Source: Pseudomonadota bacterium (GTDB lineage Bacteria > Pseudomonadota > Alphaproteobacteria > Rhodobacterales > Rhodobacteraceae). From it: a DNA stretch of 64,000 bases. Below the pieces are notes generated by a model, which did no database searches, was not told the DNA's origin, and worked only from the letters and a program-made list of their open reading frames with translations. The position numbers were made by a program, and so were the translations under genes. The DNA lies in assembly GCA_021845805.1 (NCBI GenBank), contig JAJZVD010000004.1, forward strand, positions 1-64,000. Reading direction: 5' to 3'. Below, in pieces: positions 5,183 to 20,965 of this stretch. Each line of letters begins with the position of its first letter. The first letter of the stretch is position 1.

Positions 5183-5364
5183 CGGTATTCTCCCTTTCTG
5201 GCACCTGTCCCCAAGGGCGCCCGACGTGGCGGCACACCCCTCTGCAGGCCTCGGAAGTCAGGTGGTCATCGCGGGTTTGGGCGTCAAGGGACCGGGCCGC
5301 AAATGTGTGGCCATTTTGCCGCAGCCCCCCTCCCTGCACGGCCCGGGGCGCCCCCTGCCGCCGG

Positions 5365-5787
5365 TCAATGCCGGGCCGAGGCGGGCAGGCCGAAGACCCG
5401 GTCGAAGACCAGGTTGAAGAGGAAGGCGTAAAGCAGGAAGAACACGACCAGCGCCGCGTCATAGACAAGCGCGGCCAGCAGCGTGACATCAAGCCACCAG
5501 GCCATCACCGGTACCAGGATCAGGCTCAGCCCGCCTTCGAAGCCCAGCGCATGACCCACCCGCAGCCAGAACCCCCGGCCCTTGCGGCGCCGCCGCCGCT
5601 CCCATGCCTCCCAGAGCGTGTTGAAGACCAGGTTCCAGGCCACCGCCACCGCAGAGGACACCGCCGCAAGCCCCGTGGCCCCCACCGCGTCCGCGCCGGA
5701 CACCGCAGACAGCCACAGCCCCGCCAGCAGGATGCCGAAGCCCTCGAAGGTCAGCGCGTGAATGATCCGGCGCGTGATCGGGCGCAT
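5365..5787 (-). CDS. PACE-family multidrug efflux transporter (AceI-like)
   Basis: This is a 140-residue membrane protein with four predicted helices arranged as two repeats, each opening with a similar motif (IIHALTFEGFGILL near residue 8 and VGHALGFEGGLSLI near residue 77). That tandem 'bacterial transmembrane pair' layout is the hallmark of the PACE family, whose founder AceI exports chlorhexidine and other biocides. The Glu in each FEG motif matches the conserved membrane acidic residue of the family. The start is supported by CAGGGAGGG upstream. It sits alone between clpB and an unknown gene; the native substrate is not evident. Confidence 0.85.
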   Translation of the reverse strand: MRPITRRIIHALTFEGFGILLAGLWLSAVSGADAVGATGLAAVSSAVAVAWNLVFNTLWEAWERRRRRKGRGFWLRVGHALGFEGGLSLILVPVMAWWLDVTLLAALVYDAALVVFFLLYAFLFNLVFDRVFGLPASARH

Positions 5788-14406: not shown

Positions 14407-15543
14407 ATGACCCGACACGACCCCGCCCTGACCCCGCTGGACGAGCTTCGCGCCAATACCGCCGTGCCGTTCGAACGCGCCCATGCGATGCCGAAATCGG
14501 TCTATACGTCGCCCGATTTCCTCGCCCTGGAACAGCGCCACATCTTTGCGCGCGAATGGCTGTGCGCCGGCCGGGCCGAGGCGCTGCCCGATCCCGGCGA
14601 TTACCTGACGATGACGATAGCGGGCGAACCGGTCATCGTGCTGCGCGACCGCGACGGAGAGATCCGCGCGCTGTCGAACGTCTGCCGCCACCGGATGTCG
14701 ACCCTGCTGACCGGCCGGGGCCATACCCGCGCCATCGTCTGCCCTTACCACGCCTGGACGTACAACCTTGACGGCACGCTGCGCGGCGCGCCCGCCATGA
14801 CGCTGAACGAAACCTTCTGCCGCGAGTCGGTCGCCCTGCCCGCGATCCGCTGCGAGGTCTGGCTTGGCTGGATCATGGTCACCCTGAACCCCGAGGCCCC
14901 GCCGCCGTCACAGGTTCTGGCCGGGGTGGAACGGCTGGTCGGCCATCTGCACATGGAACGCTATACCGAGGCGTTCCGCGAAACCTTCCGCTGGGCCACC
15001 AACTGGAAGGTGCTGGCCGAAAACTTCATGGAAAGCTATCACCTGCCGGTCTGCCACGCGGGCACCATCGGCGGTTCCTGCGACCTCGCGCAGATGACCT
15101 GCCCCGAGGGCGAGGCGGCCTTCAACTACCACTGGATCGTGAAGAACGACCAGGTGCCGCTGGCCCTGGCGCATCCGTCGAACACGACGCTTGCGGGGGA
15201 CGAGCGCCGGATCACCTGGCTGCTGGCAATCTATCCCGCGCTGCTGATCACCCTGACGCCGGGCTATTTCTGGTACCTCAGCCTGACCCCCGTCGCCGCG
15301 GGCGAGGTCGAGGTGCTGTTCGGCGGCGGCCTCTCGCCCGAATGGGCCGCCGACCCCGAGGCCCCGGCCCATTTCGCCGCCGTCAAGACGCTGCTCGACG
15401 CGGTGAACATCGAGGACAAGGGCTGCGTCGAAAAGGTCTTCGCCGGGCTTCAGGCGGGCCTCTCTGCCCCCGGCCCGCTCAGCCACCTGGAACGGCCGAA
15501 TTTCGACTTCGCCAGATGGATCGCGGGGCGGATGCCTGCCTAG
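14407..15543 (+). CDS. Rieske non-heme iron oxygenase, alpha subunit
   Basis: This is a 378-residue oxygenase. The Rieske [2Fe-2S] ligands are Cys93-x-His95 and Cys112-x2-His115. The mononuclear iron site is in NWKVLAENFMESYHLPVCH, with His212 and His217, and a later acidic residue in NIEDKGC (about 335-341). The tail resembles oxygenases acting on quaternary amines or aromatic acids, such as choline, betaine or stachydrine demethylases, but the substrate cannot be read from sequence. No reductase or beta subunit is adjacent, so it must borrow an electron donor encoded elsewhere. The start was chosen as the ATG next to CGACGGAG. Confidence 0.88.
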   Translation: MTRHDPALTPLDELRANTAVPFERAHAMPKSVYTSPDFLALEQRHIFAREWLCAGRAEALPDPGDYLTMTIAGEPVIVLRDRDGEIRALSNVCRHRMSTLLTGRGHTRAIVCPYHAWTYNLDGTLRGAPAMTLNETFCRESVALPAIRCEVWLGWIMVTLNPEAPPPSQVLAGVERLVGHLHMERYTEAFRETFRWATNWKVLAENFMESYHLPVCHAGTIGGSCDLAQMTCPEGEAAFNYHWIVKNDQVPLALAHPSNTTLAGDERRITWLLAIYPALLITLTPGYFWYLSLTPVAAGEVEVLFGGGLSPEWAADPEAPAHFAAVKTLLDAVNIEDKGCVEKVFAGLQAGLSAPGPLSHLERPNFDFARWIAGRMPA

Positions 15544-15566
15544 GGCAGGCACCGCAGACCGGAACC

Positions 15567-15588
15567 GGGGCGGCGGGCGCCCCGCCCC
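15567..15588. terminator. GC-rich hairpin between convergent genes
   Basis: GGGGCGG and CCGCCCC form a 7-base-pair stem in the 47-base convergent gap between the Rieske oxygenase and the YgaP-like gene. It has no T tract; I take it as a plausible terminator from position only. Confidence 0.4.
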
Positions 15589-15590
15589 CG

Positions 15591-15794
15591 TCAGTTGAAC
15601 GCGCAGCCGCCCTTGACGCCCAGCGCCTTGAAGATCAGCGCGGCCGGGCACCAGCCGGTGATGGCGGATTGCATCAGGTTGACGCCGATGAAGGCGGTGA
15701 ACCACAGGAAATAGGGCGACACCCACAGCGTCAGCGCCAGGCTGACCAGGATCATCACCCCGGCAAAGAACATCACGGCACGGTCAAGGGTCAT
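15591..15794 (-). CDS. YgaP-type small membrane protein (DUF2892)
   Basis: This 67-residue protein has two transmembrane helices separated by a short turn and ends ITGWCPAALIFKALGVKGGCAFN. The family motif GxCPxxxxxxxLGxxxGC is clear. In E. coli YgaP the same membrane domain is fused to a rhodanese, and free-standing versions occur in sulfide-responsive operons. The ATG at 15794 was chosen as the only one leaving a complete domain. Upstream lies a promoter whose -35 box is overlapped by an ATTC-N8-GAAT dyad, pointing to control by an SqrR/BigR-type repressor. Confidence 0.85.
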   Translation of the reverse strand: MTLDRAVMFFAGVMILVSLALTLWVSPYFLWFTAFIGVNLMQSAITGWCPAALIFKALGVKGGCAFN

Positions 15795-15840
15795 GGCGGC
15801 ATCCTCTCGGGTCAGGCCGCGGGCTGCGGCGTCTTGTCGG

Positions 15841-15881
15841 CAGATAGCACCGCGCCCGATAACATTCAAGAACAAGAATGT
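15841..15881 (-). promoter_or_regulatory. Promoter with SqrR/BigR-type operator for the YgaP-like gene
   Basis: Read on the minus strand, a -35 TTGAAT (15864-15869) and a -10 TATCTG (15841-15846) are spaced by exactly 17 bases. A dyad ACATTC-N8-GAATGT spans 15862-15881 and contains ATTC-N8-GAAT, the motif I recall for the persulfide-responsive ArsR-family repressors SqrR/BigR. The right half-site covers the -35 box, an ideal place for repression. The start codon lies about 47 bases past the -10. Confidence 0.65.
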
Positions 15882-15904
15882 GTATTCCGTGTCGCACCCC
15901 GGCG

Positions 15905-17059
15905 CTAGAAACCCGCCTCCAGCCGCATCAGCAGGGCCGCCATCATGGCGTCGCACCGGGCAAGCTGTTCCACGCTGACATATTCGTCGGGCTTGTGCCC
16001 CTGCGCCATCGAGCCCGGCCCGCAGATCGCGGTGGGAATGCCCAGCCGCTGCGAAAAGAGCCCGCCCTCGGTCCCGAAGGCGACCTTGATCGTGCCGTTC
16101 GCCCCCGTCAGCCCCTTGACGAAATTCACCACCCCGGCATCTGACGGGGTTCCGAGCCCGGGGTAATCCCACAGCCGTTCGACCGTGATCGCGGCCTCGG
16201 GGAATTCGGCGCGCCGCGGTGCAACGATCGCCTCGGCCGCCGCCTGCAGGCGGGCAATCAGCGCCTCGGGGTCATCCTCGGCTAGGCTGCGGATCTCGAA
16301 ATCCAGAACGCAGGCGTTGGGCACGATGTTCACCTGCACGCCGCCCTGCATCTTGCCGACATGAAGGGTGGTAAAGGGCACGTCGTAATCGCCGTCACGC
16401 CGCCCCGTCTCGGCCACCTCGGCCTGAAGGTCGCGCACCGCGGTCAGGAACTCCGCCCCCAGATGCAGCGCGTTCAGCGCCAGCGGCGCCAGCGCCGAAT
16501 GCCCCTCGCGGCCCGTGCAGGTGGCGCGCAGGGCGACCTTGCCCTTGTGGCCGGTGGCAGCCTGCATCCCCGTGGGTTCCCCCACGATGCACATCAGCGG
16601 CCGCACCGGGGCCGCCGCCAGCATCTCGATCAGCGAGCGCACGCCAAGGCAGCCCACCTCTTCGTCGTAGGAAAACGCGAGGTGCAGCGGCACCTTGAGG
16701 TCGCGCCCCGCGGCGCGAAGCCCCATCGCCAGCGCGGCGGCCACAAAGCCTTTCATGTCGGTCGTGCCCCGCCCGTAAAGCCGCCCGCCCTCTTCGGTCA
16801 GCCGGAACGGCGGCCGGGTCCAGGCCTGCCCCTCCACCGGCACCACGTCGGTATGGCCCGACAGCATGACACCGGGGCGGTCCTTCGGGCCGATGGTAGC
16901 GTAAAGATTGGCCTTTTTCCCGTCAGGATCGGGGATCAGCGTGGCCTCCACCCCGGCCTCGGCCAGCCGGTCGCGCATCCAGGTCATCAGGTCGATGTTG
17001 GGCGCGCTGCTGACGGTGGGGAAGGCGATCAGGCGGTCGAGAATGGTGCGGGTGTCCAT
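15905..17059 (-). CDS. argE: Acetylornithine deacetylase, M20 family
   Basis: This is a 384-residue zinc amidohydrolase removing the acetyl group from N-acetylornithine in arginine synthesis. Metal-site motifs are visible: SGHTDVVP (His, about 66-73), YGRGTTDMKGF (Asp, about 94-104), catalytic SYDEEVGCLG (Glu-Glu, about 128-137) and a late GHKPDEYV (His, about 357). The ATG follows AAAGGAGA. Many alphaproteobacteria use the ArgJ cycle instead, so related activity on another N-acyl amino acid is possible. It is divergent from a LysR regulator. Confidence 0.88.
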   Translation of the reverse strand: MDTRTILDRLIAFPTVSSAPNIDLMTWMRDRLAEAGVEATLIPDPDGKKANLYATIGPKDRPGVMLSGHTDVVPVEGQAWTRPPFRLTEEGGRLYGRGTTDMKGFVAAALAMGLRAAGRDLKVPLHLAFSYDEEVGCLGVRSLIEMLAAAPVRPLMCIVGEPTGMQAATGHKGKVALRATCTGREGHSALAPLALNALHLGAEFLTAVRDLQAEVAETGRRDGDYDVPFTTLHVGKMQGGVQVNIVPNACVLDFEIRSLAEDDPEALIARLQAAAEAIVAPRRAEFPEAAITVERLWDYPGLGTPSDAGVVNFVKGLTGANGTIKVAFGTEGGLFSQRLGIPTAICGPGSMAQGHKPDEYVSVEQLARCDAMMAALLMRLEAGF

Positions 17060-18141: not shown

Positions 18142-18161
18142 AGGGGCCCATGGAGGCTCAG

Positions 18162-20579
18162 ATGACCCAATCCGCAACGCTTGAAGTCGAAGGCATGACC
18201 TGCGCCGCCTGCGCAGGCCGGGTGGAACGCGCGGCCCGGGCCGTGCCCGGCGTCACCGGCGCATCGGTGAACCTTGCGATGAAGACGCTGCACGCCGACT
18301 TCACCGGCACGCCCGACCCGGCGGCGCTGGCCGCGGCGGTCGCAAAGGCAGGCTACGGCATCGGCCAGACCGAGACCGCCCTGACGGTCGACGGCATGAC
18401 CTGCGCCAGTTGCGTCGCCCGGATCGAACGCGCGCTGACCGCCTGGCCCGGCGTGACGGGGGCCGAGGTGAACCTGGCCACCGGCACGGCGGTGGCCCAC
18501 CATCTGGCCGGATCGGTGACGCCGGGCGAACTGGCCGCCGTGATCCGCAAGGCGGGATACGAGGCGACGCCGGTCCACAAGGACAGTGTCCCCGTGTCTG
18601 TCCGCCACGCCGAGGAAGCCTCGCGCCTGGCCCGGACGCTGGCGCTGTCGGCCGCGCTGACGCTGCCGGTCTTCCTGATCGCGATGGGCGCGCACATGGT
18701 GCCGGGGGTGGACCGGCTGATCATGGCCAGCATCGGGATGCAGGGCGCAAACATCCTGCAATTCGTGCTGACCACGCTGGTGCTGGCCTTCCCCGGGCGG
18801 CAGTTCCTGGTCCATGGCATCCCGGCGCTGCTGCGCGGGGCGCCGGACATGAACGCGCTGGTGGCGCTGGGGGCCGGGGCGGCCTGGGCCTATTCCACGG
18901 TTGCGACCTTTGCGCCCGGCCTTCTGCCCGCGGGCGCGGTGCAGGTCTATTTCGAGGCCGCCGCCGTCATCGTCACCCTGATCCTGCTGGGCCGGATGCT
19001 GGAAGCCCGCGCAAAGGGCCGCGCCGGGGCCGCCATCGCGCGGCTTCTGTCGCTGGCGCCCGCCACGGCGCATGTGCGCCGCAACGGCGCCGTGCTGGAC
19101 CTGCCCGTCGAAGACCTGCGCGCGGGCGACCGGATCGAGGTTCGCCCGGGCGAACGGATCGCCGCCGATGGCGTGGTCGAGGAGGGCACCTCCTGGGTCG
19201 ACCGGTCCATGCTGACGGGCGAGCCGGTGCCGGTGGAATCCGGCCCGGGGGCCGAGGCCATCGGCGGCACGGTGAACGGCGCCGGGGCGCTGGTGCTGCG
19301 CGTCACCCGCACCGGCGATGACGCGACGCTGGCCCGCATCATCCGCCTGGTGGCCGACGCGCAGGGCGGCAAGCTGCCGATTCAGGCGCTGGTCGACCGG
19401 GTGACGCTGTGGTTCGTGCCCGCGGTGATGACCGTCGCGGCACTGACGGTGGTGGCCTGGCTGGTCTTCGGCCCTGCCCCGGTCATCGCGCATGCCCTTG
19501 TCGCGGGCGTGTCCGTCCTCATCATCGCCTGCCCCTGCGCGATGGGGCTGGCCACGCCCACCTCGATCATGGTGGGCACCGGGCGCGGGGCGGAACTGGG
19601 GCTTCTGTTCCGCAAGGGCGACGCGCTGCAACGGCTGGAGGGCGCGCGGGTCGTGGCGTTCGACAAGACCGGCACGCTGACCGAAGGCCGCCCGGCCGTG
19701 ACCGAGGTGACGCTGGCGCCGGGGACAGGGATGGACGTGCTGGCCATCATCGCCGCGGTCGAGGCGCGATCGGAACACCCGCTGGCCCGCGCGCTGGTGG
19801 CCGAGGCCGAGGGGCGCGGCCTGGCCCTGCCCGTGGCCGAGGGCGTGACCGCCCGGCCCGGGCTGGGGGTGACCGCGACGGTGGCGGGCCAGCGCGTCGC
19901 CGTGGGCTCTGCCCGGCTGATGGCCGCCGAAGGGGTCGATGCGGCCCCGCTCGCCGCCGCCGCCGACCGGCTGGCCGCCGAGGGGCGCACCGTGGTGCTG
20001 GCCGCCGTCGGCGGCAGGCCCGTGGCGGTGATCGGCGTGGCCGACCCGGTGAAACCGACCGCCGCCGCCACCATCGCGGCCCTGCATGCAGCCGGGGTGA
20101 AGACCGCGCTGATCTCGGGCGACAGCGAAGCCACCGCCCGCCGCATCGGCGCGGCGCTGGGCATCGACCATGTCGTGGCGGGCGTGCTGCCCGAAGGCAA
20201 GGTCGCCGCCATCGCCGCGCTGAAGGCGGAAGGCCCGGTCGCCTTCGTGGGCGACGGGATCAACGACGCCCCCGCGCTGGCCGCCGCCGATGTGGGCATC
20301 GCCATCGGCACCGGCACCGATGTCGCGATCGAGACGGCCGACCTCGTGCTGATGTCGGGCGATCCGGCGGGGGTGGCTTCGGCGCTGGCCCTGTCGCGCG
20401 CCACGATGCGCAACATCCGCCAGAACCTTGGCTGGGCCTTCGGCTACAACGTGCTTCTGATCCCGGTGGCAGCACTCGGGCTTCTGAATCCGATGCTCGC
20501 GGCGGGGGCGATGGCGGCCTCGTCGGTCATCGTGGTCTCGAACGCGCTGCGCCTGCGCCGCTTCGGGAGGGGAACATGA
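18162..20579 (+). CDS. copA: CopA, copper(I)-exporting P1B-type ATPase
   Basis: This 805-residue inner-membrane pump moves Cu(I) out of the cytoplasm. Two N-terminal heavy-metal domains carry MTCAAC (Cys14, Cys17) and MTCASC (Cys82, Cys85). The membrane part has the CPC motif in IIACPCAMGLATPTS; the cytoplasmic loops show TGEP (actuator), DKTGTLT (phosphorylated Asp), the SEHPLA nucleotide motif and GDGINDAPAL. The P1B-1 helix signatures mark it as Cu(I)/Ag(I) specific. GGAGG sits five bases before the ATG at 18162; an in-frame ATG four codons earlier overlaps that site. Its stop overlaps the cueR start (ATGA). Confidence 0.97.
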   Translation: MTQSATLEVEGMTCAACAGRVERAARAVPGVTGASVNLAMKTLHADFTGTPDPAALAAAVAKAGYGIGQTETALTVDGMTCASCVARIERALTAWPGVTGAEVNLATGTAVAHHLAGSVTPGELAAVIRKAGYEATPVHKDSVPVSVRHAEEASRLARTLALSAALTLPVFLIAMGAHMVPGVDRLIMASIGMQGANILQFVLTTLVLAFPGRQFLVHGIPALLRGAPDMNALVALGAGAAWAYSTVATFAPGLLPAGAVQVYFEAAAVIVTLILLGRMLEARAKGRAGAAIARLLSLAPATAHVRRNGAVLDLPVEDLRAGDRIEVRPGERIAADGVVEEGTSWVDRSMLTGEPVPVESGPGAEAIGGTVNGAGALVLRVTRTGDDATLARIIRLVADAQGGKLPIQALVDRVTLWFVPAVMTVAALTVVAWLVFGPAPVIAHALVAGVSVLIIACPCAMGLATPTSIMVGTGRGAELGLLFRKGDALQRLEGARVVAFDKTGTLTEGRPAVTEVTLAPGTGMDVLAIIAAVEARSEHPLARALVAEAEGRGLALPVAEGVTARPGLGVTATVAGQRVAVGSARLMAAEGVDAAPLAAAADRLAAEGRTVVLAAVGGRPVAVIGVADPVKPTAAATIAALHAAGVKTALISGDSEATARRIGAALGIDHVVAGVLPEGKVAAIAALKAEGPVAFVGDGINDAPALAAADVGIAIGTGTDVAIETADLVLMSGDPAGVASALALSRATMRNIRQNLGWAFGYNVLLIPVAALGLLNPMLAAGAMAASSVIVVSNALRLRRFGRGT

Positions 20580-20965
20580 ACATCGCCGACGTGGCGCGCC
20601 GCTCGGGCCTGCCCGCCAAGACCATCCGCTATTACGAAGAGATCGGCCTGATCCGCCCGGCGCGCTCGGCCAACGGCTACCGCGCCTTTGCCGGGGCCGA
20701 CCTGCACAAGCTGGCCTTCCTCGGCCGGGCGCGATCGCTGGGCTTTTCCATTGAAGAGTGCCGGAAGCTGCTGGCGCTCTGGGAAGACCGCAGCCGCGCC
20801 AGCGCCGATGTGAAGGCGCTGGCCGAGGCGCATCTGCGCGAGATCGACGCCAAGATCGCCGAGCTGAGGGCCATGCGCGGGACGCTGGCGGGGCTGGTCT
20901 CCTGCTGCGCGGGCGACGACCGGCCGGAATGCCCGATCCTGACGGATCTGGCAGGCCCGGACTGA
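20576..20965 (+). CDS. cueR: CueR, MerR-family copper efflux regulator
   Basis: This is a 129-residue metalloregulator. The N-terminal winged helix is MNIADVARRSGLPAKTIRYY, followed by the dimerisation coiled coil (about 75-105). The metal loop SCCAGDDRPECPIL provides Cys111 and Cys119 with seven residues between, matching the Cu(I)-binding spacing of CueR; an additional Cys110 is adjacent. GGGAGGGGAAC precedes the ATG, which overlaps the copA stop by four bases. It should activate the promoter at 18111-18141 by DNA distortion, so copA and cueR are induced together. Confidence 0.95.
   Translation: MNIADVARRSGLPAKTIRYYEEIGLIRPARSANGYRAFAGADLHKLAFLGRARSLGFSIEECRKLLALWEDRSRASADVKALAEAHLREIDAKIAELRAMRGTLAGLVSCCAGDDRPECPILTDLAGPD

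Follow-up and report, generated by a model that had tools for sequence, protein, structure and literature searches.

A dyad, ATTCAAGAACAAGAAT, lies upstream of a small gene for a YgaP-like transmembrane protein in the 64-kb window studied here (the whole stretch of DNA that we analyzed), which raises the questions of whether the dyad is an operator, which regulator reads it and in which response the small gene takes part. An earlier note on this DNA had assigned the form of the dyad, ATTC-N8-GAAT, to SqrR/BigR, and the available part of PMC9774250 does name this same sequence as the deduced recognition site of RcSqrR. We conclude that the sulfide-sensing repressor SqrR very probably binds at this dyad.

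Results

A dyad over a weak promoter

The dyad is the sole exact match in the window (Table 1). It lies 85 bp upstream of the gene for the 67-aa protein. An M20 peptidase gene with the same orientation has its ORF end at 15905, and the dyad falls in the gap between the two; on its other side the small gene faces a convergent Rieske oxygenase gene. Within the window by itself, the dyad could have arisen by chance; window shuffles held a mean of 0.30 dyads, with at least one in 25 of 100 shuffles, so that its significance rests on the rest of the genome and on comparison between genomes.

The earlier note had also placed a promoter on the dyad. The overlap with a -35-like box and the spacing of exactly 17 bases to a -10 box on the minus strand were both found, but the two boxes are weak, the -10 box especially (3/6 consensus bases), and a promoter scan with a 9-of-12 threshold gave no promoter in 15500-16100. 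The dyad lies over the promoter, as in an SqrR operator, the promoter itself being a weak match to the consensus. A hexamer starting with TA occurs at 17 or 18 bp in nine of the 16 other dyad-bearing orthologues and is absent in seven, which makes 10 of 17 with our own locus included, and the promoter geometry is therefore only partly conserved.

Table 1. Features of the locus in the window, and genes elsewhere in the same genome that carry the dyad
Feature	Position or contig	Strand	Remarks
Putative SqrR-type operator core, ATTC-N8-GAAT dyad	15864..15879	no strand	exact match; core in 17/30 orthologous upstream regions, own included
Putative extended operator	15859..15884	no strand	flanks match trend of 36 aligned sites
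Putative -35 box, TTGAAT	15864..15869 (read 15869-15864)	-	within dyad; 4/6 consensus bases
Putative -10 box, TATCTG	15841..15846 (read 15846-15841)	-	17-bp spacing; 3/6 consensus bases
YgaP-like transmembrane protein gene (PF11127, DUF2892), 67 aa	15591..15794	-	ORF including stop codon; Pfam match
Rhodanese with dyad	contig C25		exact site upstream
Second rhodanese with dyad	contig C20		beside uvrA-like gene
TrxC gene with dyad	contig C23		exact site upstream
RND periplasmic adaptor with dyad	contig C58		own pump gene next
AhpD/CMD-family gene with dyad	contig C78		about 1.6 kb downstream of sqr

The small protein and its surroundings

The small gene (ATG at 15794, 67 codons) was described at the outset as encoding a DUF2892 membrane protein, and its product matches PF11127 (YgaP-like_TM) above the curated cut-off, with E=7.3e-13 and 48.9 bits against a gathering score of 25.3. 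This is the single match to PF11127 in the protein, which has no rhodanese domain and so is not a membrane rhodanese of the YgaP kind. The structure of the YgaP transmembrane part (2mpn) gave a weak match (E=0.015). An AlphaFold model (pLDDT 85.9, pTM 0.65) predicts helices at residues 3-17, 19-25, 29-46 and 50-57; a Foldseek search with this model returned no PDB match at E≤10, and the structure thus did not show a likeness to the YgaP fold. The cysteine of a TG-x-CP motif is kept in all 30 orthologues read, a count taken from the orthologous loci only, one of the search patterns for named genomes itself containing the conserved cysteine. The genome has one further PF11127 gene, on contig C37; the fetched locus holds no exact dyad and a single one-mismatch site, inside the gene's own reading frame. 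The protein of this second gene (G000:C37:12160-12354) has a different cysteine pattern, with two CP motifs.

None of the five nearby window ORFs tested (Rieske oxygenase, M20 peptidase, RlmL-like methyltransferase, Y-family polymerase and metal P-type ATPase) is a sulfide gene, which bears out for these five the statement that no such gene is nearby. At 18150-20965 the window encodes a heavy-metal P-type ATPase with two HMA domains followed by what appears by eye to be a MerR-type regulator, a possible copA-cueR pair. The description of the small gene as an orphan holds for some lineages but not for many relatives, in which sqr, sqrR-like, trxC or RND genes stand near it.

Conservation of the dyad

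A search for orthologues covered 147 genomes, our own included, 39 of which have a match at E≤1e-6, and 30 orthologous loci (own included) were read from the 42 match rows. Counted within 200 bp of the orthologue start, an exact dyad lies 41-87 bp upstream of the ATG in 17 of the 30 loci, own included, and is missing in the other 13. Shuffling the same upstream regions over 500 rounds gave a mean of 0.11 dyads and a maximum of 2 among the 30. The half-sites stay constant in the dyad-bearing orthologues and the eight spacer bases differ; within the genus the exact dyad is present in six of seven genomes, the seventh (G006) having one mismatch. Across 36 aligned sites, an A is mostly found two bases before ATTC, a C or T immediately before it and a T two bases after GAAT. 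The site in the window scores 35.2 on a matrix built from these 36 sites, itself included.

A second set was collected from named genomes with two peptide patterns. Of 580 confirmed relatives, the best 80 were read, most of them from the Alphaproteobacteria and some from the Gammaproteobacteria. Among these best 80, 19 loci carry an exact dyad no more than 200 bp ahead of the small gene, and the rest of their 869 kb holds six dyads, three of them beside sqr or sqrR-like genes. Neighbors were called by tblastn with proteins of our genome and the SQRs of three relatives. This gave an SqrR-like gene in 35 of the best 80 loci, SQR in 36, an RND adaptor in 52, an RND pump in 59 (five of these 59 matches being less than 50% identical) and a TrxC-like gene in 10, a class that may include other thioredoxins. 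Either a dyad or a sulfide-regulon neighbor is present in 79 of the best 80 loci. At the one exception (L204:6001-6201), no upstream dyad and no sulfide neighbor were found; its exact dyad is instead located downstream, 260 bp past the start of the small gene.

The dyad and the neighbors are nearly complementary. Among the same best 80 of 580, the dyad is present in 10 of the 11 loci in which no core neighbor was found and in nine of the 69 with a neighbor (Fisher p=5e-7), the absence of a neighbor being uncertain in 25 of the 80 because contig ends cut those loci. With a stricter rule, which leaves out TrxC and takes RND matches from 50% identity, the counts are 12 of 16 versus 7 of 64, and three of the four dyad-less exceptions have a TrxC-like gene nearby. 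Such a pattern would be expected of a regulon in which some genes are at times separated from the rest.

Exact sites across the genome

A genome search, which the earlier note had proposed as a check, found 13 exact dyads in the 3.40-Mb genome, compared to one for the pattern read backwards. Six of the 13 lie ahead of sulfur- or redox-type genes, namely the small gene, two rhodaneses, trxC, an AhpD-like gene near sqr and an RND adaptor (Table 1). The conservation of the dyad, the sulfur and redox genes behind the five other dyads and the neighbors in relatives together uphold the proposal that the small gene is a distant member of a sulfide regulon. The strong dyad ahead of the AhpD/CMD-family gene (L031:5142-5157, gene at 5210-5581) makes that gene a candidate further target of SqrR.

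The other seven sites are not ahead of a sulfur gene. Three lie well within long ORFs (C55, C61 and C75), and two (C2 and C97) lie inside or next to ORFs whose start is uncertain; of the remaining two, one is ahead of a YkuD-type (L,D-transpeptidase) gene and the other where a gene for a ClC-type chloride channel begins (L032:4945-4960, G000:C96), a site that could be either chance or a real target. Several of the 13 sites look like chance, and we considered that the dyad in the window could likewise be a chance 8-bp match in an AT-richer promoter that regulates nothing, in keeping with the matches seen in a quarter of the window shuffles. The constant half-sites around differing spacers in more than half of the orthologous loci argue against this, as does the dyad in nearly all of the named loci without core neighbors (best 80 of 580). 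We rejected a chance match on the shuffling of the upstream regions and on the background count in the named loci (best 80 of 580), and we regard this explanation as scarcely credible.

The SQR encoded on C78 is 78% identical to the SQR that adjoins the small gene in one relative (L054) and closely matches the sulfide-quinone reductase 3sz0_A (E=2.4e-155, residues 2-425); the NCBIfam model for type III selenoprotein SQR scores 109 bits on it, below the cut-off of 525. A persulfide-dioxygenase-like gene is present on C106, where the Blh model matches below its cut-off, and its fetched stretch contains no near-dyad.

The dyad on other sulfur genes of relatives

In relatives, an exact dyad is found no more than 250 bp from the match start at 12 of 13 loci of the second rhodanese, five of 12 loci of the first rhodanese (the one at L259 is 244 bp distant and perhaps unrelated to the gene) and 12 of 20 trxC loci. 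The match start was fixed at base 1501 for these counts, so a few loci at contig ends may be misplaced. The 13 and 12 rhodanese loci were counted from 27 rows, with L253 and L254 left out, and the 20 trxC loci from 30, with weaker thioredoxins left out by E-value. Among RND adaptors, 30 loci were read from 36, and the exact dyad stands ahead of 14 of them, in two cases by way of a small gene at the head of the operon.

The classical SqrR target is sqr itself. We sought a clean exact dyad on this gene and found it in one of the 13 promoters read (from 14 loci, a fragment in G005 being left out) and in none of the six of the genus, which counts against the SqrR reading. A palindrome resembling ACATATTCA-x-xATATGTGAT is kept in four of these six, with no exact ATTC-N8-GAAT; our own copy is at L031:2280-2305 (G000:C78). 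This palindrome may be a second register or a variant of the SqrR site.

The genome's SqrR orthologue and its paralogue

An SqrR/BigR homologue, on whose presence the proposal of the earlier note depended, is encoded on C45, a different contig from that of the small gene. Its best PDB match is 6o8k_A (E=7e-39), which we take to be RcSqrR, followed by 13ct_A (E=9e-38). In the alignment to 6o8k, three cysteine positions are kept, as is the stretch RQAAVSQQLARLR, presumably the recognition helix; the protein has both the two sensing cysteines and the recognition helix of SqrR. Of the double label SqrR/BigR that had been used, only the first half stands, as SqrR is the better name because the NCBIfam BigR equivalog (NF040642) matches the orthologue with 92.1 bits, below its cut-off of 155. 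There is no exact dyad on C45.

A second SqrR-like protein is encoded on C82 (L035:5075-8804). The genes next to it are TusA-like, DsrE-like and heterodisulfide-reductase-like, and by eye they resemble a cluster for sulfur oxidation of the sHdr type that has a regulator of its own. We considered that this paralogue, rather than SqrR, could read the dyad. It is a close member of the family (13ct_A, E=5e-24), and related repressors share sites in Hyphomicrobium according to the part of PMC10451225 that was available. Its recognition stretch differs from that of SqrR, however (PQSAVSKQLARLR), and C82 holds no exact dyad; the best score of the site matrix around the paralogue is 7.5, the surroundings of sqrR being likewise poor (9.3), with nothing good at either. 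An SqrR match at E≤2.6e-36 is present in all 17 dyad-bearing genomes, own included, and in five of the 17 it is the only SqrR-family match at E≤1e-6, which makes SqrR itself the probable reader of the site. We consider it unlikely that the paralogue takes this role.

TrxC, AhpD-like and RND genes are typical targets of oxidative-stress or drug-efflux control. Their presence behind the dyad would also fit another factor, such as a general redox or envelope-stress regulator, with the co-location of sulfide genes being indirect, the contact between SqrR and the DNA being a prediction. Such a factor would have to share both the published SqrR motif and its distribution over genomes that all encode SqrR, and in R. 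capsulatus trxC and a rhodanese are under SqrR control, as described in the available parts of PMC9995734 and PMC10044876. We find this explanation very improbable.

Pairing with an RND pump

In relatives the small gene often lies between sqr and the genes of an RND pump. Of the best 80 of 580 named loci, 33 have an SQR gene on the same strand that starts at most 1.8 kb upstream, 31 have an adaptor gene on the same strand at most 0.8 kb downstream, and 10 have both. Over the 147 genomes, the RND adaptor was found in 31 of the 39 with the small gene versus five of the 108 without it (p=3e-19, counting genomes with no correction for shared ancestry), and within the family in 26 of 32 versus five of 58; no more than 15 adaptor candidates were scored in each genome. 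In our own genome the small gene and the adaptor are apart, and each carries an exact dyad.

Discussion

We consider it highly likely that the SqrR orthologue of this genome, a dithiol repressor of the ArsR family, uses the dyad as its operator and that the small gene is derepressed by per- or polysulfide. Reduced SqrR would occupy the -35 region and block RNA polymerase. By analogy with R. capsulatus, a build-up of per- or polysulfide would let sulfur bridge the two conserved cysteines of SqrR, which would then leave the DNA. The YgaP-like protein would be made at that point together with the products of the genes that carry the same dyad elsewhere, namely the rhodaneses, TrxC, the RND adaptor with its pump and the AhpD-like protein.

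Given that many genomes have SQR upstream of the small gene and the pump downstream, the simplest reading is that the protein would handle or export sulfane sulfur at the membrane, and sulfane-sulfur handling there, alongside SQR and the RND pump, is its most likely role. We also put forward, as a tentative and rather doubtful extension, that the protein could be a dedicated partner of an SqrR-controlled RND pump, helping to expel SQR-made sulfane sulfur, or a small tuning subunit. As a partner, it would accept at the membrane the sulfane sulfur that SQR produces, and the pump would expel per- or polysulfide or thiosulfate; where an sqr-ygaP_TM-mfp-rnd operon is split, as in our genome, the pieces would carry SqrR sites of their own.

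These findings place a widespread protein of unknown role in the sulfide and persulfide response, from many genomes rather than from a single motif. They also name a specific RND pump as a candidate partner of the small protein, and whether the pair is under SqrR is directly testable. More generally, co-regulated genes can scatter and yet keep the same operator.

Earlier work (PMC9774250 and PMC12423496, in the parts available) already covers SqrR sites, the ygaVP case and the targeting of RND pumps by SqrR-like regulators. In the open-access literature, we found no report of a stand-alone YgaP-TM gene as a conserved SqrR target or of its tight pairing with an RND pump, and a DUF2892/RND pair is absent from the available parts of PMC9143464, PMC10509353, PMC7315123, PMC11858517 and PMC10215317. 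PMC9995734, PMC12423496 and PMC10509353 refer to the efflux of oxidised sulfur species, and their available parts assign no sulfur substrate to an RND pump. The pairing of the small protein with the pump is accordingly the more novel part, and the operator is a further case of a known type.

One close comparison is with the SqrR operators of R. capsulatus (sqr, the rhodanese rcc01557 and trxC), with which our locus has in common the ATTC-N8-GAAT core and an orthologous regulator. According to the available parts of PMC9995734 and PMC10044876, per- or polysulfide bridges the cysteines of R. capsulatus SqrR and the repressor is released, and the latter reports that sulfide, or the loss of sqrR, raises trxC expression more than 20-fold. 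An exact dyad adjoins the trxC start codon there, as read by eye from a primer printed in PMC10044876, and the trxC dyad of our genome differs from it at two of 16 letters. The target here, in contrast to those of R. capsulatus, is a stand-alone YgaP-TM gene. In E. coli the SqrR homologue YgaV likewise represses a YgaP-type transmembrane gene from a site over the promoter; the available text of PMC9774250 describes a sequence similar to the RcSqrR site in the YgaV-bound region of the ygaVP promoter and none in the YgaV-bound katG region. E. coli YgaP has its rhodanese joined to the membrane anchor and its gene beside that of the regulator, whereas neither holds here.

Azospira suillum offers independent support at the level of expression. 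During H2S oxidation its DUF2892 gene Dsui_0042 is about 10-fold up and among the most abundant transcripts, and its SQR-RND/MFP operon (Dsui_3440-3443) is highly expressed (PMC5358917, available part). Unlike here, no regulator or operator is named in that part of the paper. Deletion of the DUF2892 gene caused a minor delay only and deletion of the operon left the H2S oxidation rate unchanged, according to the same source, and these results count against an essential role. For the ArsR regulators related to sHdrR, the available text of PMC12423496 already names RND pumps as targets, as predicted for our genome; that paper does not contain the word YgaP, and what is added here to the picture of these regulators is that the pairing of YgaP-TM with a single RND pump is quantified.
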